A DNA stretch of 64,000 nt from positions 7,744,501-7,808,500 of the forward strand of contig NZ_CP091716.1 of assembly GCF_022009635.1 (NCBI RefSeq), in the 5' to 3' direction. Numbering within the stretch: position 1 is the stretch's first letter; the number at the start of each line of letters is the position of its first letter. The position numbers were made by a program, and so were the translations under genes. The notes under the pieces are model-generated. The model searched no databases and was not told the DNA's origin. It worked only from the letters and a program-made list of their open reading frames with translations. This document shows, piece after piece, positions 20,824 through 36,076 of this stretch. Source of the DNA: Variovorax paradoxus (lineage in GTDB: Bacteria; Pseudomonadota; Gammaproteobacteria; Burkholderiales; Burkholderiaceae_C).

Positions 20824-20855
20824 GGAAGGGATTTCCATTATGGAAATAATTTCCA
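20824..20855 (+). promoter_or_regulatory. Operator shared with the TRAP/AroQ operon (copy 1)
   Basis: GGAAGGGA (20824-20831) is followed by TTTCCATTATGGAAA (20832-20846), an inverted repeat with 7-bp arms. A third half-site TTTCCA follows at 20850-20855, making TGGAAAT-A-ATTTCCA a second overlapping inverted repeat. Half-sites start every 9 bp in alternating orientation. The first 23 bp match, with one mismatch, the complement of 29213-29235. Palindrome plus an extra half-site is the arrangement known for IclR proteins such as PcaU. Confidence 0.65.
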
Positions 20856-20965
20856 CTCAATCCTTATGATCGCCCCCGGCCAGCCCCCGCGACAGCGGAG
20901 CAGCCGGCCAGCCTCAGCAGAGCGCTCGCATGCTCTGCGCCATCGATCAGAACGAGGAGACTCCC

Positions 20966-22027
20966 TTGGAACTTGCCCAATCATTGACTCTCAGGCTCGC
21001 CTTGGCGGCGGCCGTGGCACTGACCGTCGCCGCATGCGGAGGAGGAAGCGGAGGCGGCGCAAGCGTGCCTTTCGCAGCCCTCTCCGCTGCGCCGGCGGCG
21101 TCGAGCAACCCGACCGCGCCCGCGGTCCAAGCGCCGGCCGAGCAGGCAGACCCGGTCGCCGAGGCCGCCGACGACAGCTTCGACACCTACTACAACGTCT
21201 GCAGGGGTACGAATCCCAAGTGCTACAACGACTGGGGCGCCTTCGCCACGACGCCGGATCGCGTGCTGGTGTACTCGCGCACGGCGGGCCCGCGCCATGC
21301 AGTGCTGGGCACGCCGATGGCCTCGGGCCTGAACCCCGTGATGAACCCGGACAACGTGATGCAGGCCGGCCTGGTGCGCATGCTGTCGGCCGAGGGCATC
21401 ACCGTCGATTGGACGGAAGACGTCGCGATCCTCAGCGGCCGCATCAACAACTACAAGGCGATCATTTTCGCGAGCTCGAACCGCGACACCTTGTGGAACG
21501 GGGCGGTCAGCACCAGCCAGGACGCCGCGCGCACCGCGCTGCGCAACTACATGCGCCGCGGGGGCGGCTTCGTCGGCCTGCACAACGCTTTCGGCGCGGA
21601 ATACAACTGGCCCTACTACGAAGGCCTGCTCGGCAACGCAAACTTCTACAACCACGCGCCGAACCGCGCAGGCGATGTCGAGATCGTCTCGGACGATCCC
21701 TCGACGAAGGAGGTGCCCAAGCGCTTCTCCTTCCAGGACGAGTGGTACAACCTCATGCCCTTCCCCACCAAGGTGAAGTTCCTGGCCAAGGTCGACACCT
21801 CGACGCTGAAGCCGCTGACGGCGGCTCCGCACCCCGGCCACGCGGACTTCCATCCGGTCGCCTGGTGCCAGTACTACGACGGCGGCCGCGCATGGCTCAC
21901 GACCCTCGGGCACAACGCCCACTCGTTCACCGCCGACCTGCAGGGCGTCGGCGCCATCGAGTTCCAGAAGCTCGTCATCCAGGGCGTCAAGTCGGCGATG
22001 GGCCTGACGCCTTTTTGCACCGAGTAA
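20966..22027 (+). CDS. ThuA-domain lipoprotein
   Basis: 353 residues from a TTG start at 20966, chosen because GAGGAG lies 8 nt before it and it begins directly with the signal peptide (LELAQSLTLRLALAAAVALT) and lipobox VAAC; an ATG at 20930 would add 12 polar residues. After a Pro/Ala-rich linker, the ThuA domain (glutamine-amidotransferase-like fold) runs from about residue 85, with KAIIFASSNRDTLW, GGGFVGLHNAFG and a C-terminal TLGHNAHSF. ThuA proteins are linked to trehalose and other sugar catabolism and occur beside PQQ or cytochrome dehydrogenases. It is followed after 31 bp by the PQQ-type dehydrogenase and is expected to be membrane-anchored. Confidence 0.85.
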   Translation: MELAQSLTLRLALAAAVALTVAACGGGSGGGASVPFAALSAAPAASSNPTAPAVQAPAEQADPVAEAADDSFDTYYNVCRGTNPKCYNDWGAFATTPDRVLVYSRTAGPRHAVLGTPMASGLNPVMNPDNVMQAGLVRMLSAEGITVDWTEDVAILSGRINNYKAIIFASSNRDTLWNGAVSTSQDAARTALRNYMRRGGGFVGLHNAFGAEYNWPYYEGLLGNANFYNHAPNRAGDVEIVSDDPSTKEVPKRFSFQDEWYNLMPFPTKVKFLAKVDTSTLKPLTAAPHPGHADFHPVAWCQYYDGGRAWLTTLGHNAHSFTADLQGVGAIEFQKLVIQGVKSAMGLTPFCTE

Positions 22028-22058
22028 CGCCCAAGAACCGTTCACGGGGTAGATATCC

Positions 22059-24281
22059 ATGAAGCAAAAATCATTGGTCACGCTGCTGGTCTCCTGCGGC
22101 GTGCTCGCATCGCCGTTGCTGATCAGCGCCTGTGGCGGCTCGAGCGGCGACGGCGCCCCCTTCCTGCCGGTGGCGCCGGCCCCCGCGCCGCCGCCGGCAT
22201 CCGGCGCGCCACCGTCAGCGTCGCCGCCGGCGGCGGCTGCGCCCGCGGCCGACCTGTCCGACTGCTGCACCGCCGGCGACAAGGACTTTCCCAAGGTGGG
22301 GGGCAATCTGGGCAACCAGAACTACTCCAGCCTGCGCAAGATCGACAAAGGCGTGATCGGCCAATTGGGCGGCGCCTGGGTCAACCAGATCGAAGGCGGC
22401 ATGAACACCGGCAACAACCAGAGCACGACGGTGGTGGTCGATGGCGTCGTCTACATCGAATCCGCCGTCGGCAATGTGATCGCCGTGGATGGCAAGACCG
22501 GCCTCACGAAATGGAAATGGACCACGCCCTACGGTGCAATCACCCGCCGCGGCGTGGCTGTGGCGAAGGATCTGGGGCTGGTGTTCACCGTCGCCACCGG
22601 CAACCGGCTGGTGGCGCTGCGGACCGACACCGGCGCGATCGCATGGATCAAGCAATATCCGAGCAGCACCACCGACCCCGACTACCAGGGGTCGCTTCAG
22701 AAAGTGGCGCTCGTCTATCACGACAAGCGCCTCTACCTGGGCACCAACGACGGCAACCGCGGCGCCGCGTTCTCCGCCGATGCCCTCACCGGCAAGGTGC
22801 TGACTTCGTTCTGGGGCGTGCCTCGCGCCGGCGAGATCGGCTACGACACCTGGGGTGGCGCCGCCGAGTCCGATCGCACCGGCGCGACGCCCTGGATCCA
22901 TCCGGCGGTGGACCCCGAGCTGGGTCTTGTCTACTGGACTTTCGGCAACGTGCGCGGGGGTTCGTCGCAGAACGGTTCCACGCGTCCCGGACTGAACCTG
23001 TTCGCCAATTCGATCGTCGCCCTGGACCTCAAGACCGGCGAATACAAGTGGCACTTCCAGTCGGTTCACCACGACATCTGGGACATGGACAACGTCATGT
23101 CGCCAGTGCTCGCGGACGTGAAGATCGACGGACGCGATCGCAAGGTCGTGATCTATGGCAGCAAGACCGGCATGTACTACATCCTCGATCGCAAGGACGG
23201 CAGCGCGCCGCTCGGCATCGACGAAGTGCCGGTGAAACAGGACGCCCGCCAGGCGAGCTGGCCCACGCAGCCCCTGCCGCGCCAGGGTGCCTGGACCGAG
23301 ACCTGCATCGTGGACCAGCCACTGGGCACGGCGATTCCAGGCGACCCCAACCGCGCGGTGCCCAACTATGTGAAGGGCTGCCTCTATGACGCGCATTGGG
23401 ACGTGCCGATACTCTCCATTCCGGGGCATGGCGGCGGAGCCAACTGGAACCACCAGTCGTACAGCCAGCGCACCGGGCTGGTCTACACGGGCATGGGTTA
23501 CGTGTCGGCGGCGCATTCGCTGACCGAGGCGAGCAACGGCCTGCGCCCGCCGGGTACCTACATGACCGGCGCCGTCGTGGCCGTCGATCCCGGCACCAAT
23601 CTGGTCAAGTGGAAAAAGCAGATGCCGTACTCCCTGGCGCACGGCAACGGCATCCTGACCACGGGGTCCAACCTTCTCTTCATCGGCCAGCCCGACGGCA
23701 ACCTGTTGGCCATGGATGCCAATGACGGCAGCGAGCTGTGGCGCTTCCAGACGGGGGCCGCGATCAGCGCCAGCCCGATCACGTACGAGATCGACGGCGA
23801 GCAGTATGTCGCGGTGTTCTCCGGCGGCACGAGCATTCCCTATGGCGACTCGGCGCCCCGCGGCGACCGCCTGTGGGCATTCAAGGTCGGAGGCACGGTG
23901 CAACCGCCCGCAACGCCGATCCCGCCCGTCGTGCGTCGCCCGGTGTCGGGCGCGGCCGTGGAGGGCTCGGCGCTGCCCACGCCCAACACCGTGTTCCTGG
24001 CACGCGTGCAGACTGCGGCGAACGCGCCCGGAGCTGTCGAGTCGACGGCGGTCAACGCCATGACACCGACTTTCATGCGCGTGCCGGCCAACACCACGGT
24101 GACCTTCACCAACCCGGGCGGCAACTCCAACACGCATTGCGCCACCCAGTTCTTCGAAGGCCGCTTCGACTTCAGGCTGGCGCCGGGACAGTCCGCAAAC
24201 CATACCTTCGACACGCCCGGCGAGTATTTCTACAACGACTGCCACAGCCCGCGACCCACCGGCAAGATCGTCGTGTACTGA
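22059..24281 (+). CDS. PQQ-dependent dehydrogenase lipoprotein with C-terminal cupredoxin-like domain
   Basis: 740 residues. A lipoprotein signal (MKQKSLVTLLVSCGVLASPL, lipobox ISAC) and a Pro/Ala linker precede an eight-bladed beta-propeller with repeated tryptophan-docking segments. The HHDIWDMDN motif near residue 335 and LVYWTFGNVRGG are typical of quinoprotein dehydrogenases acting on alcohols, sugars or quinate. The last 100 residues form a cupredoxin-like domain with His693, Cys728 and His729 but no clear axial Met. No haem-c motif (CxxCH) or membrane-helix bundle is present, so the copper-like tail may be the electron exit. A CC pair occurs at about residues 68-69, before the propeller. 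It forms a two-gene unit with the ThuA lipoprotein. Substrate unknown. Confidence 0.87.
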   Translation: MKQKSLVTLLVSCGVLASPLLISACGGSSGDGAPFLPVAPAPAPPPASGAPPSASPPAAAAPAADLSDCCTAGDKDFPKVGGNLGNQNYSSLRKIDKGVIGQLGGAWVNQIEGGMNTGNNQSTTVVVDGVVYIESAVGNVIAVDGKTGLTKWKWTTPYGAITRRGVAVAKDLGLVFTVATGNRLVALRTDTGAIAWIKQYPSSTTDPDYQGSLQKVALVYHDKRLYLGTNDGNRGAAFSADALTGKVLTSFWGVPRAGEIGYDTWGGAAESDRTGATPWIHPAVDPELGLVYWTFGNVRGGSSQNGSTRPGLNLFANSIVALDLKTGEYKWHFQSVHHDIWDMDNVMSPVLADVKIDGRDRKVVIYGSKTGMYYILDRKDGSAPLGIDEVPVKQDARQASWPTQPLPRQGAWTETCIVDQPLGTAIPGDPNRAVPNYVKGCLYDAHWDVPILSIPGHGGGANWNHQSYSQRTGLVYTGMGYVSAAHSLTEASNGLRPPGTYMTGAVVAVDPGTNLVKWKKQMPYSLAHGNGILTTGSNLLFIGQPDGNLLAMDANDGSELWRFQTGAAISASPITYEIDGEQYVAVFSGGTSIPYGDSAPRGDRLWAFKVGGTVQPPATPIPPVVRRPVSGAAVEGSALPTPNTVFLARVQTAANAPGAVESTAVNAMTPTFMRVPANTTVTFTNPGGNSNTHCATQFFEGRFDFRLAPGQSANHTFDTPGEYFYNDCHSPRPTGKIVVY

Positions 24282-24306
24282 CGGCCTTCGTTCGGCGGCT
24301 CGCAGC

Positions 24307-24340
24307 AAAAAAAGCACCGGCATCCGCCGGTGCTTTTTTT
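24307..24340. terminator. Bidirectional Rho-independent terminator
   Basis: GCACCGGC (24314-24321), loop ATCC, GCCGGTGC (24326-24333) is a perfect 8-bp stem. It is bordered by seven A on the left and at least seven T on the right, so it can stop transcription from both sides. It lies between the converging dehydrogenase and ELWxxDGT genes. Confidence 0.92.
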
Positions 24341-24363
24341 TCCTCATGAGGGCGAGCGCCGGA

Positions 24364-25791
24364 TCAGCGCAACCGCTGCTCGAGCGGGTCTCCGATCAAT
24401 GCCACCCGGCCATTGCCGCGGCGTATCCACAGGCGCTCATTGCCATGACCGTCATCGGCGACAAAGAGCACCGCGTCCCCGAATGCACGAAAGCCCAACG
24501 GCATCGAATTGCGAGAACCGGCCGCGATATCGGCCACGGCGCGGGTACCGGCCGGCGAGCCGTCGCTCGTCCAGGGCTCGACGCCGGTGGCGCTTCCGCC
24601 GTTCGCGGAAAACCACAGCCGGGCTCCGATGGCCGCAAAGCGCGCAGGCGACCCGCTCTCGGCGCCTGGCACGATGTCCTTGACCAGCGTGGTCCCCTTC
24701 GCCGTGCCATCGCTGCGCCACAGTTCCGCGCCGGATACACCGTCGGTCGCGGCAAAGTACAGCCGCCCTCCCATCGCCGACAAGGGACTTGCAATGGCGC
24801 CCTCTGCTCCGGGTCGGATGTCCTTCACCAGCGTGGTGCCGGCCGTGGTGCCGTCGCTCTTCCACAGCTCGGTGCCGTGGATACCGTCGTTGGCGGCGAA
24901 GTACAGCATGCGGTCGAGCGCGATCAGGTGCGTGGGACGCGAGGATGCGTCCCCAGGCCGAATGTCCTTCACCATTCGCGTGCCCCGCTCGGTGCCATCG
25001 CTTTTCCACAACTCGGCCCCGTGCACACCGTCGTTGGCGGTGAAGTAGATGCTGTCACCCACGGCGGTCAGGCCCTGGATCTCCGCGTCCTCGATACCCG
25101 GGCGGATGTCCTTCACCATCCGCGTGTTCTCTGGCGCACCTTCGCTGACCCAGAGTTCATGGCCATGCTCGCGGGTGGTCGCGGTGAAGAACAGGCGTTT
25201 GCCGGCCACCGTGAGCTGGCGCGCGACCGCGCGAGGACCGGCGTCGATCGAGGACACGCGCGTCGTGGTCTGCGTGCTGCCCGAGGTCTTCCACACCTGG
25301 AAGCCGGTGCTGCCGTCATTGGCGACAAAGTACAGCGCGTCGCGAAACACGGTCAGCTCGCTGGGCATGGCACCCTCCTCGCCCGGCCGCAAATCGATGA
25401 CGAGCGAAGTGCCCGCGGCCGTACCGTCGGTTCGCCAGAGCTCCAGACCGCTCGCGCCGTCCGTGGCCGTGAAGTAGACATGGCCACGGAACGGCGTCTG
25501 CCAGACGGGAAAAGATCCTCGGAAGCCGGGACGGATGTCCTTGAGCATCGCAGTACCGGCGATGCTGCCGTCCGTGATCCAGAGCTCCTGCCCCGATGCC
25601 ACGTGGAAAGCGGAAAAAAGCACGCGTCCGCCCAGTGGCGTCAGCCCGGTGGGAGAGACGAAGGCAAGCCGCTGGCGCTGTTCGGGAAGAACTTCGCGCT
25701 CGGGATCCCGCGCGGATGCACAAGACTGGGCCAGGAGCGCAAGCGCGGCGAGCCACACGGGGCGCACGAAGCGCATCGGGGCACGGGTCAT
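24364..25791 (-). CDS. ELWxxDGT-repeat lipoprotein
   Basis: 475 residues. MTRAPMRFVRPVWLAALALL and a lipobox ending AQSC indicate a lipoprotein (a start at MRFVRP, 25776, is also possible). The body has eight repeats of about 47 residues built on ELWxxDGTxxGT ... VKDIxPG followed by LYFxAxDG; the repeats FQVWKTSGSTQTT and VEPWTSDGSPAGT are diverged. Such repeats probably form a beta-propeller; the function of the family is unknown. It starts 1 bp after the TRAP DctM stop and so appears to be the last gene of the TRAP operon, which is an unusual partner. Confidence 0.85.
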   Translation of the reverse strand: MTRAPMRFVRPVWLAALALLAQSCASARDPEREVLPEQRQRLAFVSPTGLTPLGGRVLFSAFHVASGQELWITDGSIAGTAMLKDIRPGFRGSFPVWQTPFRGHVYFTATDGASGLELWRTDGTAAGTSLVIDLRPGEEGAMPSELTVFRDALYFVANDGSTGFQVWKTSGSTQTTTRVSSIDAGPRAVARQLTVAGKRLFFTATTREHGHELWVSEGAPENTRMVKDIRPGIEDAEIQGLTAVGDSIYFTANDGVHGAELWKSDGTERGTRMVKDIRPGDASSRPTHLIALDRMLYFAANDGIHGTELWKSDGTTAGTTLVKDIRPGAEGAIASPLSAMGGRLYFAATDGVSGAELWRSDGTAKGTTLVKDIVPGAESGSPARFAAIGARLWFSANGGSATGVEPWTSDGSPAGTRAVADIAAGSRNSMPLGFRAFGDAVLFVADDGHGNERLWIRRGNGRVALIGDPLEQRLR

Positions 25792-25792
25792 C

Positions 25793-27073
25793 TCAGCCCC
25801 CGAACCATCGGGCGGGCACCGTCACCAACTGCGGGAAGATCACCATGACGAACATGATCGCGAACTCGGCCGCCATGAACGGCAGGACACCGCGGGTGAC
25901 ATCGTCCATCTTCATCTTCCCGACGCCTGCGACGACGTTCAGCACCACCCCCACGGGCGGCGTGATGAGCCCGATGGAGTTGTTGATGATGAACATGACG
26001 CCGAAGTAGACCGGGTCGATGCCCGCGGCAATGACGACGGGCATCAGCACCGGTGTCAGGATCAGGATGGTGGGTGTCATGTCCATCGCCGTGCCCACCG
26101 CCATGACCAGCAGCATGACCATGATCATCAGGAGGATCTTGTTCCCCATGAAGGGCTCGAGCAGCCCCACCACCTTGGACGGCAGATCCGCCACCGTGAT
26201 CAGCCAGGCGCTCACCATCGCCGCCGCAATCAGGAACATGACCACGGCGCTTGTCTTCGCGGCGCTCACGAACACCTTGTAGAGCGCGTCGAAACTCAGC
26301 TCGCGATAGATGAAGGTGGCGACAAAGAACGCGTAGACGGCCGCCACCACCGCGGCCTCTGTCGGCGTGAACACCCCCATGCGCAGACCGACCAGGATGA
26401 TGACGGGCAACAGCAGCGCCCAGCCGGCATCCCGCGCGGCCTTCATGACTTCGCGCGCCGGCTTGCGCGGCGGTGGCTGGATCTTCTCGTGTCGAACGAG
26501 CCATGCCCAGGTCACCCACAGCGCGCCGCCGATCAGCAGCCCCGGCACGATGGCGGCCATGAAGAGCTTGGAGATCGATACGTTGGCGGCAACGCCGAAT
26601 ATCACCAGGCCGATGCTGGGTGGAATCACGGGCCCGATGATTCCCGTGGCAGCGATGAGGCCGCCCGCCCGCGCCTTGTCATGGCCCGCCTTGACCATCA
26701 TCGGCAGCAGCAAGGCGGTCAGCGCGGCGGCGTCCGCGACAGCCGAACCGGAGAGCGCCGAGAGCAGGCAGCCGGCCATGATGGTCACGTAGCCCAGGCC
26801 GCCCTTCACGTGACCGACCAGCGCGAGCGCGAGGTCGACGATGCGCTTGGACAGGCCCCCGACATTCATGATCTCGCCAGCCAGCATGAAGAACGGCACT
26901 GCCAGCAGCGGAAAACTGTCGGCGCCGCCGATCACGTTCTGCGCAAGGATCTGCGCATCGAACAGATCAAGGTGCCACATCAGCGCCACGCCGCATGCGA
27001 GCAGGGAGAACGCGATGGGAATGCCCATGGCCATGGCCACGAGCAGGGAGCCCACGAAGACAAGGATGGTCAT
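25793..27073 (-). CDS. dctM: TRAP transporter large permease, DctM-type
   Basis: 426 residues, about 12 membrane segments, with the DctM hallmarks LSGSAVADAAALTALLLPMM and IIGPVIPPSIGLVIFG in the first half. The second half has DMTPTILILTPVLMPV and IGLITPPVGVVLNVV. It is the sodium-coupled transport subunit that takes solute from the periplasmic binding protein. Its start overlaps the DctQ stop (ATGA). The substrate is probably an organic acid; AroQ in the operon hints at a dehydroquinate-like compound. Confidence 0.96.
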   Translation of the reverse strand: MTILVFVGSLLVAMAMGIPIAFSLLACGVALMWHLDLFDAQILAQNVIGGADSFPLLAVPFFMLAGEIMNVGGLSKRIVDLALALVGHVKGGLGYVTIMAGCLLSALSGSAVADAAALTALLLPMMVKAGHDKARAGGLIAATGIIGPVIPPSIGLVIFGVAANVSISKLFMAAIVPGLLIGGALWVTWAWLVRHEKIQPPPRKPAREVMKAARDAGWALLLPVIILVGLRMGVFTPTEAAVVAAVYAFFVATFIYRELSFDALYKVFVSAAKTSAVVMFLIAAAMVSAWLITVADLPSKVVGLLEPFMGNKILLMIMVMLLVMAVGTAMDMTPTILILTPVLMPVVIAAGIDPVYFGVMFIINNSIGLITPPVGVVLNVVAGVGKMKMDDVTRGVLPFMAAEFAIMFVMVIFPQLVTVPARWFGG

Positions 27074-27633
27074 TTGCGTGCTCCCGGTTCCTCGTCTTTC
27101 GGCCCCAGGATCTGCTTGAGCTGGATCGCCTCCTCCGACTCCTGGATCATCACCAGGTCATCGTCGGCGATTCGTCCCGTCAGCAGTCGAAGCAGATCGA
27201 GCCCCAGGATGAACGCGGCCAACACAGAGAACACCACGCCCGAGGCATAGACGATGGCCATCGATGCGCCGGTGACCGGTGCCGTGACGTCCCAGTTGAT
27301 GCGTGCCTGCGCCATGCTCCCCTGAAAGAGAAGCCAGACGATGTAGAGCATGACCACGTGGCCTGTCGCGAGGCAGATTTTCTTGCCGACGGGCGGCAAC
27401 TTCTGCACCACCATGTCCACGCCCAGATGGCCGTGCTCCTTGAGCGCGACCACCGCGCCAAGGAAGGTCATCCAGATGAAGAGCCAGCGCGACACCTCTT
27501 CGGACACGGTGATGCCCGAATTGAAACCGTACCGCAGCACCACATTGCCGAACACGAGCACGACCATGACCGCGAGCGCGGCGGCGATCAGTGCCTCGAT
27601 GCCGGCACAGCACCGATCGATCCATTGATTCAT
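27070..27633 (-). CDS. dctQ: TRAP transporter small permease, DctQ-type
   Basis: 187 residues with four membrane helices and the family segment EEVSRWLFIWMTFLGAVVAL followed by KEHGHLGVDM. It is required with DctM for TRAP transport. The C-terminal 35 residues are a charged cytoplasmic tail (IADDDLVMIQESEEAIQLKQ), a little longer than usual. ATG 27633 lies 47 bp after the AroQ gene. Confidence 0.94.
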   Translation of the reverse strand: MNQWIDRCCAGIEALIAAALAVMVVLVFGNVVLRYGFNSGITVSEEVSRWLFIWMTFLGAVVALKEHGHLGVDMVVQKLPPVGKKICLATGHVVMLYIVWLLFQGSMAQARINWDVTAPVTGASMAIVYASGVVFSVLAAFILGLDLLRLLTGRIADDDLVMIQESEEAIQLKQILGPKDEEPGARK

Positions 27634-27680
27634 CTTGTTTTTCTCTCTGGCGGTCCGTCGACATCGGACAGCCTGGTGTT

Positions 27681-28127
27681 TCAGGAGGCAGCCGCCTGTT
27701 TTTGCATATCGACCAGGGCACGCAATGCGGCCAGGTAGGAGTGCGGCCCCAGGCCTTGCACCGTCCCCTTCACCGCCGGCGAAATGATCGAATGCGCACG
27801 CCAGGTTTCACGTGCAGCGATGTTCGACATGTGCACCTCGATGGTCGGGAACGGCATGGCCTTGATCGCGTCGTGCAATGGCACGCCGTGCTGGGTGAGA
27901 CCCGCTGGGTTGACCAGCGCGCCTTGGGCATCGTCGATATGGGAGTGAAGGAAGTCGATGAGATCGCCTTCGTGGTTGGACTGGATCGTCTCCAGTGCCA
28001 CGCCGAGTTCGCTCGCCAGCGCTTGCAACTGGGCGTTGATTTCCGCAAGCGTGGTCTTGCCGTAGATATGAGGTTCGCGGCGCCCGAACAGGTTGAGGTT
28101 GGGACCGTGGAGAACGAGGATTTTCAT
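27681..28127 (-). CDS. aroQ: Type II 3-dehydroquinate dehydratase
   Basis: 148 residues, the normal type II length. The start MKILVLHGPNLNLFGRREPH is diagnostic, with the catalytic Tyr22 in HIYGKTT, the flexible-loop arginines, NPAGLT and the catalytic EVHMSNI histidine. It converts 3-dehydroquinate to 3-dehydroshikimate by anti-elimination. An earlier in-frame ATG at 28151 overlaps the DctP gene and adds MNAGTAHF. Being embedded between TRAP genes suggests a catabolic (quinate/shikimate route) rather than biosynthetic copy; that is inference from context. Confidence 0.94.
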   Translation of the reverse strand: MKILVLHGPNLNLFGRREPHIYGKTTLAEINAQLQALASELGVALETIQSNHEGDLIDFLHSHIDDAQGALVNPAGLTQHGVPLHDAIKAMPFPTIEVHMSNIAARETWRAHSIISPAVKGTVQGLGPHSYLAALRALVDMQKQAAAS

Positions 28128-28147
28128 GAAGTGAGCCGTGCCTGCGT

Positions 28148-29149
28148 TCATTGTTTGCGGATGCGAGCGAGTTCGTCGTTGTAGAGCTTGACGATGCCGG
28201 CGTCGTACTGCGAAGCGAACTTGTCGATCGCGGGCTTGGCGATCTCGCGCATGCGCACCTGCTCTGCGGCGCTCACCTCGTTGAACTGCGCGCCCTTGGC
28301 TTGCAGGTCTCCGATCGCCTTCTGCGCGGCGGCGCGGCTGACCTGCCGCTGATAGCCTCGCGCTTCGTCGGCCGCCTCATTCATCATCTTCTGCTCGGCG
28401 GCGCTCAGCGAATCCCAGAATTTCTTGCTGACCAGCACGATGTTGGCCGCGTACACGTGGTTCGTGGCGCTCACGAACTTCTGCACCTCGAAGAACTTGT
28501 TTGACAGGATCACCGAATAGGGATTTTCCTGGCCGTCGACCGCCTTCGACTCGAGGGCGCCATAGAGTTCGGCGAAAGGCATCGGCACCGGATTCGCCTT
28601 GAAGGACTTGAAGGTTTCCAGGAACACGGGGTTGGGAATGACCCGGATCTTCAGGCCCTCGAGATCTTCCGGCTTGGCGATGGGGCGCTTGCTGTTCGTC
28701 ACGTTGCGAAAGCCCAGGTCCCAATAGCCCAGGGCCACGAGGCCCTTTTCCGGCAGCTTGGCAATCAGCGCCTGACCCAGCGGACCATCGAGCAGCGCAT
28801 CGGCCTGCGCGAAGTTGTTCACCGAGAACGGAAAGTCGACCAGACCGAACTCCTTGACGATGCCCGCCAGCGAGGTCGTGGCCGGCGCCGACATCTGCTG
28901 CACGCCGCCTTGCAGGGCGGACTGCTGCTGCATCTCGTTGCCGAGCTGGGAGGCCGGGTACTCCTGCACCTTCATCTTGCCGCCGCTCTTGGCGGCGAGC
29001 AGTTCGGCGAAGCGCTTCACGCCGAAGCTCACCGGATGGTCCGCGTTGTTGAGATGGCCGAAGCGGATCACCCGCTCCTGCTGGGCCCAGGTCGGGGCGA
29101 CAAGACCGATGCACAGGCCGGCGACGGCAAGCGTACGAAGAAGTTTCAC
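28148..29149 (-). CDS. dctP: TRAP transporter periplasmic binding protein, DctP-type
   Basis: 333 residues with signal peptide MKLLRTLAVAGLCIGLVAPT, cleaved near TWA. It has the DctP core: RFGHLNNADHPVSFG, the KIRVIPNPVFLE segment with the conserved Arg that clamps the ligand carboxylate, and KAVDGQENPYSVI. It is the first gene of the operon running to 24364; the operator copy at 29213-29235 lies 64 bp upstream. It captures an organic acid for DctQM. A homologue is encoded at 30116-31135. Confidence 0.95.
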   Translation of the reverse strand: MKLLRTLAVAGLCIGLVAPTWAQQERVIRFGHLNNADHPVSFGVKRFAELLAAKSGGKMKVQEYPASQLGNEMQQQSALQGGVQQMSAPATTSLAGIVKEFGLVDFPFSVNNFAQADALLDGPLGQALIAKLPEKGLVALGYWDLGFRNVTNSKRPIAKPEDLEGLKIRVIPNPVFLETFKSFKANPVPMPFAELYGALESKAVDGQENPYSVILSNKFFEVQKFVSATNHVYAANIVLVSKKFWDSLSAAEQKMMNEAADEARGYQRQVSRAAAQKAIGDLQAKGAQFNEVSAAEQVRMREIAKPAIDKFASQYDAGIVKLYNDELARIRKQ

Positions 29150-29198
29150 GGATGGTCTCCAGAGGAAGGCAGAAAAGTCTGACTGGCGCGATTCTGAG

Positions 29199-29235
29199 TT
29201 TTCCGGAAAAGCTTTCCATTATGGAAATCCCTTCC
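29199..29235 (-). promoter_or_regulatory. Operator shared with the ThuA/dehydrogenase unit (copy 2), tandem palindromes
   Basis: A perfect palindrome TTTTCCGGAAAA (29199-29210) is followed by TTTCCATTATGGAAA (29213-29227) and TCCCTTCC (29228-29235). The complement of 29213-29235 repeats the element at 20824-20846 with a single mismatch at the centre. It lies between the divergent dctP and IclR genes, oriented toward dctP as copy 1 is toward the ThuA gene. Binding by the adjacent IclR protein is the natural inference. Confidence 0.68.
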
Positions 29236-29307
29236 CATGATCTGATAGAGTGATAACGTCGCAACGTCGCGCGGACAAATGGGCGCGACTGAACCGGGAG
29301 ACATGAA

Positions 29308-30090
29308 ATGAGCGAAATGCTGGGACGCAGCTTCAAGGTCTTGGAATATCTGGCGGAGCATCCGCAGGGCGTTGCACTGTCCACCGCGGCCAGTCAATTG
29401 CAGATCCCCTTGAGCGCATTGCACCGATTGCTGACGGAACTGATTCGCTGCGGGTACGTGCGGCAGAACCTGGCCGATGGCCACTATGTTCTGACCATCA
29501 AGCTCGTCTCCGTCGGCTTGTCGTTCCTGAGCAACTCGGGGATCGTGGACGTGGCGCAGCCCTTGCTCGACCAACTGGCCTCGACCTCCGGCGAACTGGT
29601 GCGCCTGGCGGTGGTCGATGGCGAAGACCTGACCTTCGTGGCCAAGGCGCAAGGGGCCACGCACGGGCTTCGCTACGACCCGGACATGGGGCTGTCGGTC
29701 GCCCTGTCGTGCAGCGCCGCCGGACACGCATGGCTCTCGACGATGAGCGAGGACGATGCCATGGCACTGGTGGCCAAGAAGGGGCTGGGCAAGCCCGAAG
29801 ACTACGGCCCGAAGGCGCCCACCACGCTCAAGGCGGTGATGACCTATGTGAAAGCCACTCGCCAGCGCGGGTTCAGCATGATCAACGAGGTGTTCGCACC
29901 GGGAATGACCGCCATGGCCGCACCGGTCTTCGCTGTCAACGGTTCGGTGATCGGCGTCATCACCATCGCGGGGCCCGCCGTCAGGCTGACGTCGCAACGG
30001 ATGGAGGCACTGGGACCTGCGCTGCTCGGTACGGTCGAGGAGGTCGCGCGCGCCAGCGGTGCTTCGGCGCTATTCAAGAAAAGAGCATGA
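29308..30090 (+). CDS. IclR-family regulator of the TRAP/AroQ region
   Basis: 260 residues. Winged helix-turn-helix at about 5-70 (LGRSFKVLEYLAEHPQGVAL, then LSALHRLLTELIRCGYV) and an IclR effector domain (GELVRLAVVDGEDLTFVAK; FSMINEVFAPGMTAMAAPVF). It is transcribed divergently from the dctP operon, with the duplicated operator in the 158-bp interval, and is followed after 25 bp by a second DctP gene that it probably shares a transcript with. IclR proteins of the PcaU/PobR type control aromatic and quinate catabolism. Confidence 0.94.
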   Translation: MSEMLGRSFKVLEYLAEHPQGVALSTAASQLQIPLSALHRLLTELIRCGYVRQNLADGHYVLTIKLVSVGLSFLSNSGIVDVAQPLLDQLASTSGELVRLAVVDGEDLTFVAKAQGATHGLRYDPDMGLSVALSCSAAGHAWLSTMSEDDAMALVAKKGLGKPEDYGPKAPTTLKAVMTYVKATRQRGFSMINEVFAPGMTAMAAPVFAVNGSVIGVITIAGPAVRLTSQRMEALGPALLGTVEEVARASGASALFKKRA

Positions 30091-30115: not shown

Positions 30116-31135
30116 ATGAAGACGAAGAGTGCGATTCGCAGGCTGCTGGTGGCCACCGTCGCCGCCACGGCCGTTCTTGCCGCGTCAGGCGTGGCTGCGC
30201 AGGTCAAGGAGCGCACGCTCAAGTTCGCGTTCCAGAACCAGACCGGCCACCCGCAGGCGCTGGGTGCGCAGAAGTTCGCCGACCTGGTAGCTGCCAAATC
30301 CGACGGCAAGATGAAGGTGAAGTTGTTTGCAGGTGGCGTGCTCGGCGGTGACCTGCAAACCGTGTCGGCGCTGCAAGGCGGAACGATCGAACTCACGGTG
30401 CTGAACGCGGGCATTCTCTCGGCGCAGGTGAAGGAGTTTGCGGCCTACGACTTCCCTTTCCTGTTCAACGATGGCAAAGAGGCCGATGCGGTCACCGACG
30501 GCCCCTTCGGCCAGAAGCTCATGGCCAAGTTGGAGGACAAAGGCCTGTACGGCCTGGGCTACTGGGACCTGGGTTTTCGCAACCTCACCAACAGCAGGCG
30601 ACCGATCACCAGGGCGGACGACATCACCGGCCTGAAGATCCGCGTGATCCAGTCGCCGATCTATATCGACGTGTTCAGCGCGCTGGGCGCCAACGCAACC
30701 CCGCTGCCGTTTCCCGAGCTGTACCCTGCGCTCGAGCAGAAGGCGGTCGACGGCCAGGAGAATCCGAACACGACCATCCTGTCGTCGAAGTTCTCCGAGG
30801 TGCAGAAGTACATCACCCAGACCCGGCACATCTACAACCCGCAGGCGCTGCTGATCAGCAAGAAGACCTGGGACAGCATGAGCGCGGAAGAGAAAAAGAT
30901 CCTGACGCAGGCGTCGAACGAGGCGACCGTGTTTCAGCGCGCCGCCTCGCGAGGCGCCGCCGATGGCGCGCTCGACGCGTTGAAAAAGGCGGGCATGACC
31001 GTTTCGGAAATTTCACCGGAAGAGATGACGAAGCTGCGCGCCAAGGTCAAGCCGGTGATCGACAAGTACGCCGCATCGGTGGGCGACACCACCGTCAAGG
31101 AGTTGATGGCAGAAGTCGAGAAGGCTCGGAAATAG
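30116..31135 (+). CDS. Second TRAP periplasmic binding protein, DctP-type
   Basis: 339 residues from ATG 30116, preceded by GAGGAG. The signal peptide MKTKSAIRRLLVATVAATAV ends near VAA. The core is FAFQNQTGHPQALGAQKFAD, then LKIRVIQSPIYIDVF with the ligand-binding Arg and KAVDGQENPNTTI. It is related to the DctP at 28148-29149 (both share YWDLGFRNxTNS and AVDGQENP). No second DctQM pair is present, so both receptors may feed the same permease. Confidence 0.94.
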   Translation: MKTKSAIRRLLVATVAATAVLAASGVAAQVKERTLKFAFQNQTGHPQALGAQKFADLVAAKSDGKMKVKLFAGGVLGGDLQTVSALQGGTIELTVLNAGILSAQVKEFAAYDFPFLFNDGKEADAVTDGPFGQKLMAKLEDKGLYGLGYWDLGFRNLTNSRRPITRADDITGLKIRVIQSPIYIDVFSALGANATPLPFPELYPALEQKAVDGQENPNTTILSSKFSEVQKYITQTRHIYNPQALLISKKTWDSMSAEEKKILTQASNEATVFQRAASRGAADGALDALKKAGMTVSEISPEEMTKLRAKVKPVIDKYAASVGDTTVKELMAEVEKARK

Positions 31136-31225: not shown

Positions 31226-33673
31226 TCACCAACGGTATTTCGCGCTCAGCACCGCCGTGCGTTCCGAGCCCCACAGGCAGCCGCTGCTGCAGGTCGCGAC
31301 GTATTTCTTGTTGGCGAGGTTGCTCACGTTGAGTGCGAAGCGCCACGGCCCGCGCTCGTAGTGGATGGCCGCGTCGACCAGCGTGAATGACGGCGTGCGC
31401 ACCGTGTTGGCAGCGTCGTCGTAGGTCGAGCCGACATAGCGCACGCCGACGCCGAAGCCCACGCCCTGCAGATCCCCGCCCTGCACCTTGTAGTCCAGCC
31501 AGGCCGAGGCGGTCTGCTTCGGCGTGTTGACGGGCATCCTTCCCTGGTTGCCGTCGTTGCTGCGCGTGACCTTCACGTCGTTCCAGGTGTAGTTGGCCGT
31601 GGCGTCCAGGCCGCGTGCCAGGCTGAACTTGCCTTCCAGCTCGAGCCCGCGCGAGCGCACTTCGCCGGTTTGCAGGTAGTAGTCGGTGTGATCCGGGTCC
31701 AGCGTGAGCACGTTGCGCTTGGTCAGGTCGAAGACGGCGGCGGTGAACAGGCTGCGGCTGTCCTCGGGCGCGTACTTGATGCCGATCTCGGTCTGCTTGC
31801 CGCGCGTGGGCTTGAAGGCCTCGTCGTAGAAGTCACGGCCCGCCTGCGGCAGGAATGACGTGGCATAGCTCACGTACGGTGCCCAGCCCGAATCGGTGAG
31901 GTAGGTCAGGCCGGCGCGGCCGCTGAAGGCGTGGTCGCTCTGGCGCTGCACGGTGCCGGCCAGGCGGTCGACGGTGCTCTGCGAGGCCCAGTCCATGCGG
32001 CCGCCCAGCGTCAGCAGCCAGTGGCGGTCGAAGCGCAACTGGTCCTGCACATAGAGGCCGGTCTGGCGCAGCTTCTGGCGCGAGTCGTCCGTCAGCTCCG
32101 TCGGCGCGGCGAACGGCAGGCCGTAGACGGGGAACAGCGTGTCCAGATCGGGCGCGGTACCCGGATGCCGCAGGAACGTGAGCTTGCGCTCGGACCAGTC
32201 GGTGCCCACCAGCAGCGTGTGCTCGACGTTGCCCGTGCGCAGCTTGCCCTGCAGCTGCGTGTCGATGACGCTCTGGCGCGTCTTCTCGTCGAAGGCGGCG
32301 GCGTTGCGCTCGATCGTGTGGCCGTCGTCCAGCAACGCGCCGTCCTGCACCCGGCGGTAGTTGACCTTGACATCGGCCACGCGCGCATTCTGGCGGAAGG
32401 TCCACGTGTCGTTCAGGCGGTGCTCGAACTGGTAGCCGATGCTCGACTGGTCCTGGTCGAAGCCGTTGTAGTTGGGCTCGCCGACCAGCACGCGCGTGAT
32501 GCTGCCCACGGGCGGCGGCTCGGGGTTCGTGTAGTAGAAGGCGTAGCCGCGGTTGCGGTCGCGCTTGATTTCCGACAGCAGCGTGAGCGTCGTGTCGGTG
32601 GACGGCTTCCATGTCAGCGAGGGGGCGAGGTAGAAGCGCTGGTTGGCACCCCGATCGCCGTTGCTGTATTTGTCCTGCGTGCCCGTGTCCAGCCCCGTAC
32701 CGACGATGCGATAGAGCAGCTTGCCGTCGGCGTCGAGCTTGCCGCCCAGGTCCGCGGCCACCTGGCGCCGGTTGAAATTGCCGAGCTGCACTTCGATTTC
32801 GTTCACCGCATCGGCACGCGGGCGCTTGCTCACGCGGTTGACGATGCCGCCGGCCTCGCCCTGCCCATAGAGCACCGAGGTCGGGCCGCGCAGCACTTCG
32901 ATGCGCTCCAGGCCATAGGGCTCGGAGCGTTGGTTGGCAAAGTTGGCGTTGGTCGCCATCGGCAGTCCGTCGAGGTACAGCGCCGTTCCGAAACCGTAGA
33001 AGCCGCGCAGGTTGACCCAGTCCTGGCCGCGCGAATCGGGCCCGTACTGGTCGACGGTGACACCCGGCACGTAGCGCAGCGCCTCGGTCACATCGAGCGC
33101 GCCGCGCGACTCGAGTTCGCTGCGCCCGAGCACCGAGATCGACTGCGGAGTCTCGATGATCGGCGTGTCGGTCTTGGTGGCGGTCGCGCTGCGCTTGGCG
33201 GCGTAGCCGTCGACGGGACCGGTGGCCGTTTCGCCTTCCGCCGAGCCGAGCACCGTCACCGTGGGCAGCGCGGCATCGGCAGCGGCTGCCGGCGCCGCTG
33301 CCGGTGCGGCTTGGCGGGTCAGCACATAGCTGCCGTTGGGCTGCTGCGTGGCGCGCAGGCCGCTGCCGGCCAGCAGCGCGTCGAGTCCGCCCTGCACCGA
33401 ATAGCTGCCCTGCAGGCCGTTGCTGCGCATGCCGGCCGTCGTCTCGGTCGGGAACGACAGCAGGATCCCGGCCTCGCGGCCGAAGCGGCCCAGCGCGTCG
33501 TCGAGCCGGCCGGGGGCGATGCTGAAGTTGCGCGTCGGCGCCGCGGCGGGCTGGGCGATGGCGACGCCCGGCAGCGCCAGCACGCTCGCCGCGGCGATAC
33601 CGCCCAGGGCGAACTGATGGATGGCACGCGACAGGGCGTTGCAGAGGGGGCGTTGGGTTGGTCCGCGATGCAT
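31226..33673 (-). CDS. TonB-dependent siderophore receptor with signalling (STN) domain, system A
   Basis: 815 residues from ATG 33673 (MHRGPTQRPLCNALSRAIHQ, signal ending near AIA); a GTG at 33712 is in frame but its ribosome site would touch the start codon. After export the STN domain (about 50-100, FSIAPGRLDDALGRFGREAG) signals to FecR. Next come a linker, the plug domain (ETPQSISVLG ... YGLERIEVLRGPTSVLYG) and a 22-strand barrel ending in the aromatic residue of AKYRW. It imports a ferric siderophore through the outer membrane. A possible ECF-type promoter upstream is GAAAAAAAAT, 16 bp, CGTT on the minus strand near 33740-33770. Confidence 0.94.
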   Translation of the reverse strand: MHRGPTQRPLCNALSRAIHQFALGGIAAASVLALPGVAIAQPAAAPTRNFSIAPGRLDDALGRFGREAGILLSFPTETTAGMRSNGLQGSYSVQGGLDALLAGSGLRATQQPNGSYVLTRQAAPAAAPAAAADAALPTVTVLGSAEGETATGPVDGYAAKRSATATKTDTPIIETPQSISVLGRSELESRGALDVTEALRYVPGVTVDQYGPDSRGQDWVNLRGFYGFGTALYLDGLPMATNANFANQRSEPYGLERIEVLRGPTSVLYGQGEAGGIVNRVSKRPRADAVNEIEVQLGNFNRRQVAADLGGKLDADGKLLYRIVGTGLDTGTQDKYSNGDRGANQRFYLAPSLTWKPSTDTTLTLLSEIKRDRNRGYAFYYTNPEPPPVGSITRVLVGEPNYNGFDQDQSSIGYQFEHRLNDTWTFRQNARVADVKVNYRRVQDGALLDDGHTIERNAAAFDEKTRQSVIDTQLQGKLRTGNVEHTLLVGTDWSERKLTFLRHPGTAPDLDTLFPVYGLPFAAPTELTDDSRQKLRQTGLYVQDQLRFDRHWLLTLGGRMDWASQSTVDRLAGTVQRQSDHAFSGRAGLTYLTDSGWAPYVSYATSFLPQAGRDFYDEAFKPTRGKQTEIGIKYAPEDSRSLFTAAVFDLTKRNVLTLDPDHTDYYLQTGEVRSRGLELEGKFSLARGLDATANYTWNDVKVTRSNDGNQGRMPVNTPKQTASAWLDYKVQGGDLQGVGFGVGVRYVGSTYDDAANTVRTPSFTLVDAAIHYERGPWRFALNVSNLANKKYVATCSSGCLWGSERTAVLSAKYRW

Positions 33674-33731
33674 TTTTCTTGAAGTGCGAAGGTTGAAGGT
33701 GGTGGCTTTCACCTTCCATGTCCCCCGAGAT

Positions 33732-34745
33732 TCAAGAACGGACCACCCCTGGCGATATTTTTTTTCGGGGTGCCAGGCTCACCCGCACCGTTTGCAGGCC
33801 CCAGAAGCGCGTGACGACCTGCACCTCAAGCGACAGCACGGCACTGAGCGTGTCCAGCACCTTGTCGATGTCCGCCAGCGGATACGAGCCCGACACGCGC
33901 AGGTCGGCCACGGCCGGATCGCTCGACAGCGGGCGCGCGCTGTAGCGGCCCAGCTCGGCGAGGAAGTCCGCCAGCCGCATGCCCTTGGCGACGATGAAGC
34001 CCTCGGTCCAGGCGGTGCTGTCGGCGTCGGCCCATTGGGGTGCGTCGATGGTGTCGGCGGCGAAACGGGTCTTCTGGCCGGCCTGCAGCACCTGCGTGCG
34101 CCAGGCCGCGCGCCGCGGCGTGATGCGCACCGCGCCCTCGAACACGGCGATGTCGCTGGCCCCGTCGAACTGGCGCACCGTGTAGCGCGTGCCCAGTGCC
34201 TGCGCCTCGCCCTGCGCGGTCTCGATCAGGAAGGGGCGGCCCAGCGCGTCCTTGGCAGTGGTGATGAGCAATTCGCCCGACAGGAGACGCACGCGCCGTT
34301 CGGTTGCGCTGAACTTCACGTCGACGGCGGTACCGGTGTTCAGGACCAGCACCGTGCCGTCGTCCAGCGTGGTCGTGCGACGTTCGCCGAGACCGGTGCG
34401 TTGAGCGGCGATTTCTTCGCCCCAGCGCGTCTGGCGCCCGACCGTCCACGCCGCGCCGCCCGCGAACAGCAGCACGGCCAGCGCGGTGACGGCCTGACGG
34501 CGCCCGCGCGAACCGGTGCGCGTGAGTGCCGCATGGGCCATGGCCGTGCCGACCGGCGTGGCCAGCCGGTGGAGCTGGCCGTTGACGGCTTCGATGCGCT
34601 GCCAGGCGCGCTCGTGGTCGGGATGCGCAGCGCGCCAGCGCTGCCATTCGTCGCGCAGCCTGGACGCGGCGGGCTCGCCCTGCAGATCGAGCAGCCATTC
34701 GGTCGCGCGCTGTGCGACGTGCCTTGGAACGGGCGCCTCCGTCAT
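33732..34745 (-). CDS. FecR-type anti-sigma/transmembrane signal transducer, system A
   Basis: 337 residues from ATG 34745, overlapping the sigma-factor stop as ATGA. The N-terminal cytoplasmic DUF4880-like domain has RATEWLLDLQGEPAAS and the tryptophan-rich WQRWRAAHPDHERAWQRIE. One membrane helix follows (TALAVLLFAGGAAWTVG), then the periplasmic FecR domain (RTTTLDDGTVLVLNTGTAVD) and a C-terminal STN-interaction-like region. It relays receptor occupancy to the sigma factor. The receptor gene follows after 58 bp. Confidence 0.94.
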   Translation of the reverse strand: MTEAPVPRHVAQRATEWLLDLQGEPAASRLRDEWQRWRAAHPDHERAWQRIEAVNGQLHRLATPVGTAMAHAALTRTGSRGRRQAVTALAVLLFAGGAAWTVGRQTRWGEEIAAQRTGLGERRTTTLDDGTVLVLNTGTAVDVKFSATERRVRLLSGELLITTAKDALGRPFLIETAQGEAQALGTRYTVRQFDGASDIAVFEGAVRITPRRAAWRTQVLQAGQKTRFAADTIDAPQWADADSTAWTEGFIVAKGMRLADFLAELGRYSARPLSSDPAVADLRVSGSYPLADIDKVLDTLSAVLSLEVQVVTRFWGLQTVRVSLAPRKKISPGVVRS

Positions 34746-35257
34746 GCCGGCTGCGCGTCCGCGAAGTAGCACTGCATGGCGGCCTTGACGAGATAGCGCT
34801 TCACCGTGGTGATGGAGATCGACATCAATGCCGCGACCTCGGCGTGGCCCAGGCCGTCGAGCTGGGTCAGCAGGAACACGCGCCTGACGGGCGGCGGCAA
34901 GCCATTGAGCAGGCGGTCGATTTCGGTCAGCGTCTGCAGCAGGATGGCGCGCTCTTCTTCCGAAGGTGCCATCGCCTGCGGCACCTGGGCCAGCGCCTCG
35001 AGGTACGCGCGCTCCAGCTGCTGGCGGCGCCAGTGGTTGGCCAGCACGCGCTGCGCCACCGTGGTGAGAAAGGCGCGCGGCTCCTGGATCGCGACCGCCT
35101 CCTGCTTGGCCAGCAGGCGCACGAAGGTGTCGTGCGCGAGATCGGCCCCCTGATGCATGTCGCCAAGCTTCTTGCCGAGCCAGCCCCGCAGCCAGCCATG
35201 ATGGTCGCTGTAGAGCGATTCGATCTGCGGATGGGCTGGAAATTCAGAAGCCGCCAT
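34742..35257 (-). CDS. ECF sigma factor, FecI-type, system A
   Basis: 171 residues starting MAASEFPAHPQIESLYSDHH; an in-frame ATG at 35299 would overlap the putative Fur box and is rejected. Region 2 contains GADLAHDTFVRLLAKQE, region 4 contains LPPPVRRVFLLTQLDGLGHA followed by a helix-turn-helix. It directs RNA polymerase to the receptor promoter when FecR is activated. Its start is 41 bp from the Fur-box-like element, so repression by iron is likely. Confidence 0.94.
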   Translation of the reverse strand: MAASEFPAHPQIESLYSDHHGWLRGWLGKKLGDMHQGADLAHDTFVRLLAKQEAVAIQEPRAFLTTVAQRVLANHWRRQQLERAYLEALAQVPQAMAPSEEERAILLQTLTEIDRLLNGLPPPVRRVFLLTQLDGLGHAEVAALMSISITTVKRYLVKAAMQCYFADAQPA

Positions 35258-35297
35258 GACAGCAAGGTGCGAGTGGGACGTGGAGTGTAGCGTTCGC

Positions 35298-35316
35298 AAT
35301 GAGAACGATAAGCATT
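35298..35316. promoter_or_regulatory. Putative Fur box between the two sigma-factor genes
   Basis: AATGAGAACGATAAGCATT, embedded in GCA...TGC, matches the left half and both ends of common Fur boxes, with three mismatches near the right centre. It lies in the 146 bp between divergent FecI-type genes, next to a CATAAT -10-like hexamer at 35322-35327 on the plus strand. One box could repress both systems when iron is sufficient. Confidence 0.5.
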
Positions 35317-35403
35317 TGCCACATAATACCTGCCGCGTCCGTCGCGACGCGGCACCTCTTCTCGTCGCCGCCCCCTGCCCTGCGTCCTGTTCGACTTCGT
35401 CCC

Positions 35404-35994
35404 GTGTTCACCCGCTACTACCGCGAACTGCTGCACTTCCTGGGACGCTCGGTCAAGGATCAGCACACGGCCGCGGACCTCGTTCAAGAGAGCTATGCCC
35501 GGGTGCTCGTCGCGCAAAAAAATGGCGAGGACATCGTCGATCCGCGGGCGTTGCTGTACCGCACGGCGCGCAATCTGCTGATCGATCGTCACCGCCACGA
35601 CCAGGTGCGTCGGGCCGCCCTGGGCGAGACCGTGGACACGGATGAGGACGAAGAGACGCTGAGCCAATTGGCCGCGCCGCCCGCCTTCGAACCCGAGGTG
35701 GCCGTCGCGTCACGGCAAGGCGTTCAGGCACTCCTGACCACCATCGGCGAACTGCCGGTGCGTTGCCGCCAGGCCTTTATGCTCCACAAGTTCGAGGGAC
35801 TGTCGCATGCCGAGGTCGCCGAGGAGATGGGGATCACGGTCAAGATGGTCGAAAAGCACATCAAGATGGGCTTGCAAGCCTGCAGAGCTTGCCTGGAGCA
35901 GCAGGCGGGAACAGCGGCTGCACGCGCAACCCGCCAGCCCGCAGGCACGCCGCCGCCTGGCGCTGTCGACCCCTCTGCGAAGACGCCGCCATGA
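35404..35994 (+). CDS. ECF sigma factor, FecI-type, system B
   Basis: 196 residues from a GTG at 35404 (VFTRYYRELLHFLGRSVKDQ). The ATG at 35299 lies on the Fur-box-like element and is rejected; no better start with a ribosome site was found, so the N-terminus is uncertain. Region 2 has AADLVQESYARVLVAQ; region 4 has LPVRCRQAFMLHKFEGLSHA and a helix-turn-helix. A C-terminal tail rich in Pro and Ala (about 25 residues) is unusual. It is followed by its FecR partner. Confidence 0.9.
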   Translation: MFTRYYRELLHFLGRSVKDQHTAADLVQESYARVLVAQKNGEDIVDPRALLYRTARNLLIDRHRHDQVRRAALGETVDTDEDEETLSQLAAPPAFEPEVAVASRQGVQALLTTIGELPVRCRQAFMLHKFEGLSHAEVAEEMGITVKMVEKHIKMGLQACRACLEQQAGTAAARATRQPAGTPPPGAVDPSAKTPP

Positions 35995-36022
35995 CGACAC
36001 CCGGTTATTTTCTTGTGTTGCA

Positions 36023-36050
36023 GGTAGGGTTGAACGCCGCTCGTTCGTCT
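36023..36050 (+). promoter_or_regulatory. Predicted FecI-type ECF promoter before fecR B
   Basis: GGTAGGG (36023-36029), exactly 16 bp, CGTCT (36046-36050). The same two blocks at the same spacing stand before the TonB receptor at 37318-37345, while the DNA between and around differs. ATG of the FecR gene is 27 bp downstream. Likely recognised by the system B sigma factor. Confidence 0.6.
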
Positions 36051-36076
36051 GCAAAGGTAGGAGCGCCCCTTTCACC

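Follow-up and report, generated by a model that had tools for sequence, protein, structure and literature searches.

The operators closest to the one described here are those of IclR-family regulators, whose motifs are divided in the main text of PMC8222616 (Suvorova and Gelfand 2021) into two groups, matching the outer-pair and inner-pair palindromes of our locus; the motif table is repeated in PMC13273656. That main text predicts that 32 orthologous groups have three-box alternating sites and that 94 have tandem sites 18 to 22 nt apart, takes both to fit tetramers, and lists DctPQM among the co-regulated genes of IclR regulogs. The terms "dehydroquin," "COG1638," "PQQ," and "Variovorax" are absent from the main text of the same paper, and the regulog analyzed here may already be listed in its supplements. 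Literature searches that covered few subscription journals found nothing that joined at least three of IclR, TRAP, AroQ, and ThuA; ThuA, PQQ, and TRAP; Variovorax, IclR, and TRAP; or IclR, a TRAP transporter, and quinate.

We analyzed a stretch of 64,000 nucleotides, referred to below as the window, in which two gene sets can be tied into one testable regulon. The features concerned are as follows.

20824-20854, + strand: operator array copy 1, with four boxes at 20824-20828, 20832-20836, 20842-20846, and 20850-20854 (19/20 box positions)
20865-20870, + strand: putative -10 TATGAT of the ThuA unit, placed by the conserved offset, with a putative -35 TGGAAA at 20841-20846 and a spacer of 18 bp
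20930-22027, + strand: ThuA-domain protein (PF06283), first gene of unit 1
22059-24281, + strand: PQQ-type beta-propeller protein, putative cofactor use, with a weakly cupredoxin-like tail (below the Pfam cutoff)
24364-25791, - strand: ELWxxDGT repeat protein (TIGR04534), distal gene of the dctP unit
25793-27073, - strand: DctM, large permease of the TRAP transporter (PF06808)
27070-27633, - strand: DctQ, small permease (PF04290)
27681-28151, - strand: AroQ, type II 3-dehydroquinase family (Pfam and some of the AroQ models), one of two genome copies
28148-29149, - strand: DctP1, solute-binding protein (PF03480), first gene of unit 2
29191-29196, - strand: putative -10 CAGAAT of dctP1, with a putative -35 TGGAAA at 29218-29213 and a spacer of 16 bp
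29205-29235, - strand: operator array copy 2, with four boxes at 29235-29231, 29227-29223, 29217-29213, and 29209-29205 (19/20 box positions)
29246-29251, + strand: putative -10 TAGAGT of iclR, with a putative -35 TGGAAA at 29222-29227 and a spacer of 18 bp
29308-30090, + strand: IclR-family regulator, predicted binder of both arrays (PF09339, PF01614)
30116-31135, + strand: DctP2, second solute-binding protein (PF03480), downstream of iclR

An earlier note on this DNA had reported a duplicated 23-bp element, and its coordinates and degree of match proved exact: GGAAGGGATTTCCATNATGGAAA lies at 20824-20846 (+) and 29235-29213 (-), 8.4 kb apart, with 22/23 bases identical and a single central base differing. 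The note had described a 23-bp palindrome with additional half-sites; these sequences are present, but the conserved unit spans 31 bp, in an array of four boxes that alternate in direction, GGAAG-gga-TTTCC-atnat-GGAAA-nnn-TTTCC, when both copies are read toward the structural gene. The half-sites are genuine and keep one register across the two copies; rather than being loose, they form box 4 (20850-20854 and 29209-29205), which in copy 2 overlaps the TTTTCCGGAAAA pointed out earlier. Boxes 1-2 and boxes 3-4, the outer pairs, each form a GGAAR-nnn-TTTCC palindrome, and the centers of the two are 18 bp apart; the inner pair (boxes 2-3) is a TTTCC-n5-GGAAA palindrome, the one recognized in the note. 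The pattern TTTCCATNNNATGGAAA, with a different spacing, gave scattered matches and was rejected as a definition of the element, and no Rfam family was found in the window at gathering thresholds.

With their alternating boxes and palindrome centers 18 bp apart (range, 18 to 22 nt), the arrays fall in layout within the alternating and tandem IclR operators described in the main text of PMC8222616, and this kind of operator is therefore already known. Alternating boxes join the two motif groups in the three-box operators of that text as they do here, but there are three boxes there and four here. The E. coli IclR operator, given in the same text as TGGAAATNATTTCCA, resembles the gene-proximal half of copy 1, TGGAAATAATTTCCA. 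The regulator of the window, however, scored 135.7 bits against the E. coli IclR equivalog model NF008601 (cutoff, 380), and the target genes differ. The earlier note had likened the layout to that of PcaU. The array does share a palindrome plus an external direct box with PcaU and PobR operators, but their boxes are of the GTNCG type (PMC8222616, main text), whereas the boxes of the window and their best-kept part, TGGAAANNNTTTCCA, match the E. coli IclR type, and the array overlaps the presumed -35. Kinship of the regulator with PcaU was not supported: it scored 116.7 bits against the PcaR/PcaU/PobR model TIGR02431, below the cutoff of 284.75, and membership was rejected.

Across relatives, 154 arrays scoring at least 15 were taken with 60 bases of flank, and those at least 75% identical over 151 bp were removed to leave 79 promoters; the result is a precise 31-bp operator with 79 nonredundant natural variants. 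TGGAAANNNTTTCCA is intact in 54/79 of them versus 10/79 for the TTTCCATNATGGAAA palindrome, and box 1 is weak, with AA kept in 71/79 and a full GGAAA in 4/79. Conservation of the scored positions is partly circular because the set was chosen by an array score of at least 15; unscored array positions are also kept (T18 in 96%, A32 in 84%, and G7 in 84% of the 79 promoters), so conservation is not solely an effect of selection.

The best TATAAT-like hexamer was found 7 to 11 bp after the array in 73/79 nonredundant promoters and 8 to 10 bp after it in 68, with a mean best hexamer score of 4.23/6 at offsets 7 to 13 versus 1.99 to 3.16 in the other computable bins. TGGAAA (array positions 18 to 23), 16 to 18 bp upstream of the -10-like hexamer, is the presumed -35. 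Given a hexamer 7 to 11 bp past the array, boxes 3 and 4 cover the presumed -35 and the spacer, and this placement, if the promoter elements are rightly assigned, is a repressor position. On the side toward iclR, the best-scoring hexamer fell at 8 to 11 bp in 47/66 dctP1 arrays (most commonly TAGAGT, TACATT, or TACAGT) versus 3/13 ThuA arrays, and a divergent iclR is missing beside most of the latter.

We consider it highly probable that the IclR-family protein encoded at 29308-30090 uses both arrays as its operators; it would most likely repress both units and itself until a ligand releases it. The sequence of the arrays, their uniqueness, their conservation, and their placement relative to -10-like hexamers are observed, whereas binding, a tetramer, repression, and an inducer are inferred. 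Each array offers two palindromes of the E. coli IclR type (GGAAA-nnn-TTTCC, box 1 being weak) that overlap the inner TTTCC-n5-GGAAA palindrome, and a dimer of dimers would most likely occupy one DNA face. Once bound, the regulator would sit over the -35 and spacer of whichever promoter it meets, that of dctP1 or that of ThuA, and at copy 2 also over the -35 of iclR, a mirror image. It would so repress both units and its own gene, and an inducer, probably an imported organic acid or its product, would release it. A single repressor would most likely control an organic-acid importer and the ThuA/propeller pair through two near-identical switches.

PcaU and PobR, which have three-box sites, are activators, and the inducer-bound regulator might instead activate from the same sites; because some three-box IclR proteins activate, the sign of regulation is not proven. 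Activation fits the external direct box beside the palindrome, which recalls the PcaU-type three-box sites in the main text of PMC8222616, and it fits a presumed -35, TGGAAA, that matches just 4/6 bases of TTGACA. We nevertheless hold it to be unlikely, as the array sits over the presumed -35 and spacer and not in the upstream region and the regulator is below the cutoff of the PcaR/PcaU/PobR model, and we retain repression as the preferred reading.

Conservation was assessed in 101 genomes of the genus of the window, which is Variovorax going by named relatives. The core matched at 13 to 14 of 14 positions upstream of iclR in all 18 genus orthologues of at least 82% identity, and exact cores occurred in 8/101 genomes, at 12 places, all of them at an iclR-dctP or ThuA promoter. 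Within 250 bp upstream of iclR, an array of at least 15/20 was present at 69/80 named loci (at least 16/20 at 61/80), while 1/1600 Markov resamples reached 15. Broken down by iclR identity, the 69 comprised 49/52 loci at 70% or more, 9/9 at 65 to 70%, and 11/19 below; the 11 loci scoring less than 15 were L078, L101, and L109 (iclR about 72% identical) and eight below 65%. Upstream of four DctP1 relatives at 83 to 90% identity, the best score was 14 (L036, L117, and L129) or 12 (L101). ThuA was present in 24/101 genomes: the array upstream scored 17 to 19/20 in 13, a 15/20 variant lay before a preceding dctP copy (a dctP-ThuA-propeller unit) in 5, and no array was found in 6, whose contigs hold just 60 to 359 bp upstream; 1/480 resamples reached 15 on this side. 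ThuA accompanied a close iclR orthologue (at least 82% identity) in 18/18 genomes versus 6/83 others (Fisher p 3.6e-15, kinship ignored), and in G015 the iclR-dctP and ThuA units are about 155 kb apart with the array kept at each. In a 299-genome family sample, the array was found with at most one mismatch in 18 genomes, including that of the window; in the 17 others, two from the genus of the window, 15/18 array places adjoin an IclR, DctP1, ThuA, or propeller relative. The remaining 3/18 have none of these genes within 1.5 kb, and no model named the open reading frames at two of them.

The array is thus strongly conserved and, as the earlier note had it for this genome, stands before the ThuA and dctP1 genes, recurring in relatives ahead of both the ThuA-propeller and dctP-aroQ-dctQM sets. 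The single regulon that the note had predicted to span both units is well supported by this genome comparison.

The note had also placed an IclR gene beside copy 2, and the domains of the 29308-30090 protein agree: HTH_IclR scored 50.3 bits (cutoff, 22) and IclR_C 90.4 (cutoff, 24), both over curated cutoffs, with a lower-than-cutoff score against the BhcR equivalog NF045644 (137.5 bits; cutoff, 350). Residue 38 of its helix-turn-helix domain (29308-29493) is Leu in the window and Ser in the other orthologues among the matches listed at 82 to 95% identity. A first look at the genome gave 41 candidate places for IclR relatives, their status as genes unconfirmed, of which 26 were scored and 29308-30090 was the sole one past 1e-60; given these 41 places, adjacency and co-distribution are the grounds for predicting that the 29308-30090 protein binds the arrays.

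In a tree built from 29 selected iclR rows, lineage A, that of the window, had a support of 97/97 and was distinct from lineage B, whose support of 91/93 is under the star threshold of the tool. In G046, G027, G062, and G023, the dctP-aroQ-dctQM unit has a lineage A gene and the standard array, and a lineage B gene precedes a dctP copy-ThuA-propeller unit with the CCAAGTGTTTTCACTAG variant, which also occurs at lineage B genes in genomes without a ThuA match (for example, G005, G022, and G035). This joint change of regulator and operator is the strongest computational argument for assigning the array to the adjacent regulator, and the swap of regulator lineage offers material on how IclR proteins read DNA. 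The further IclR-like places in the genome would allow another IclR protein, or some other regulator, to bind the arrays beside an incidental iclR, as would G017 (L175, L109), where the ThuA unit has an array but iclR has none of at least 15/20 upstream; against the 69/80 loci and an operator variant that tracks the adjacent regulator lineage, we rate this as very improbable and keep the 29308-30090 protein as the predicted binder. At L173, L185, L186, and L187, the regulator is of the second IclR lineage and comes with the operator variant of that lineage, and a dctP copy precedes ThuA-propeller.

The core TTTCCATNATGGAAA had two exact matches in the 7,953,676-base genome, both in the window, with about 0.001 expected by a zero-order model; one place matched with one mismatch and 11 with two, and the reversed control pattern matched one place within two mismatches in the whole genome. 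TTTCCANNATGGAAANNNTTTCC, the core plus the next box, also had two exact matches, and the lone other distinct place within three mismatches has three. Lone palindromes at other genomic positions (TGGAAANNNTTTCCA with one mismatch, eight places including copy 2) revealed no second array. Rather than the many unrelated genome-wide copies against which the earlier note had cautioned, no further exact copies were found. The 100-base ungapped flanks of the two copies are 36/100 and 22/100 identical versus 27/31 inside the array and so are unrelated, which means that the repeat is not part of a longer duplicated segment. We found no point in favor of a repeat that arose by chance or of a mobile repeat element, and the probability of either is negligible given exactly two copies, unrelated flanks, and a position conserved in relatives; the repeat is real.

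The ThuA and propeller proteins are probably periplasmic. The propeller scored 172.3 bits against TIGR03074, the membrane-bound PQQ quinate/glucose dehydrogenases (cutoff, 832.65), and 260.4 against TIGR03075 (cutoff, 480.05). It does not keep two neighboring cysteines and an acidic position found in the solved alcohol dehydrogenases 1yiq and 1kv9, residues that presumably have PQQ- and metal-site roles; propellers beside pqq genes in relatives are without the same residues, where compared. Genes over the PqqB, PqqC, and PqqE cutoffs trail the propeller in the same direction in G055 and G062, and PqqE lies between the propeller and TRAP genes in 7/15 ThuA genomes tested (G055, G018, G046, G027, G062, G023, and G002). 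The PQQ dehydrogenase of the earlier note is therefore plausible but uncertain, having pqq genes behind it in several relatives but scores below the PQQ enzyme model cutoffs. A reading of the propeller as PQQ-free was not retained, since pqqB, pqqC, and pqqE stand behind propellers of relatives that miss the same residues.

PqqE exceeded its cutoff in 10/18 genomes searched but not in that of the window, its sister G048, or the ThuA genomes G091, G001, G007, G015, G017, and G070; a PqqC search of the genome of the window gave no match, and control genomes gave none either. The presumed PQQ-linked unit thus has its cofactor genes in some relatives and lacks them in the genome of the window, where the stop codon of the propeller gene is 82 bp from that of the ELWxxDGT gene (24281-24364). 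As the next-closest genomes, G055 and G018, carry the pqq block, its loss in the lineage of the window appears the simpler reading. At L181:6442-10566 and L185:7836-11895, the propeller and ELWxxDGT genes flank pqqB, pqqC, and pqqE, together with a gene resembling prolyl aminopeptidase that scored under its cutoff.

The best solved relatives of DctP1 are 4p47 and then 7bbr, which we take to be CxaP, a sugar-acid binder. Xylonic, fuconic, galactonic, and gluconic acid are among the CxaP ligands described in PMC12076931. This second-best relative points to a polyhydroxy-acid ligand, but the AroQ, ThuA, and propeller partners belong to the system of the window; our best guess for the substrate is a polyhydroxy or cyclic acid. 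AroQ, whose other genome copy is at C1:5315783, scored over the cutoffs of Pfam, NF003807, and NF003805 and below those of NF003806 (170.1/171), TIGR01088 (160/169.85), and NF003804 (155.6/195). The paralogue at 27681-28151 reads LTQHG where its solved relative 2uyg reads LTHYS, a difference in a stretch with active-site roles that may affect activity. Quinate catabolism, a possible pathway here, would pair a PQQ quinate dehydrogenase with AroQ, and the propeller misses the cutoff of the membrane-bound family.

A broader reading, which we put forward tentatively and give somewhat less than an even chance, is that one IclR-type switch coordinates an undescribed cyclic or polyhydroxy-acid pathway made up of the periplasmic ThuA-propeller pair, in several relatives its PQQ cofactor genes, TRAP uptake, and the AroQ paralogue. 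The lineage of the window would have lost the cofactor genes and would either take PQQ from neighbors or dispense with it. The ThuA half would, in one Variovorax clade, have passed to the second IclR lineage together with the operator type of that lineage, a natural operator swap.

Among neighboring open reading frames at other loci, four of the first 10 had a Pfam match (a restriction enzyme, a methylase, a glyoxalase, and TetR), and one of a further six did (TENA/PQQC, identified as PqqC); no consistent pathway enzyme was found among these 16, several of which were long wrong-frame picks. DctP2 also lies behind iclR in L180, L181, L182, L185, and L186, and an ELWxxDGT repeat protein also lies behind dctM in several relatives. 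The region at 31226-37246 encodes a TonB-dependent siderophore receptor (TIGR01783, 399 bits; cutoff, 223.5), a pair of ECF-type sigma factors that exceed their cutoff, and a pair of FecR-like proteins that fall short of the FecR cutoff; it probably represents two surface-signaling sets.
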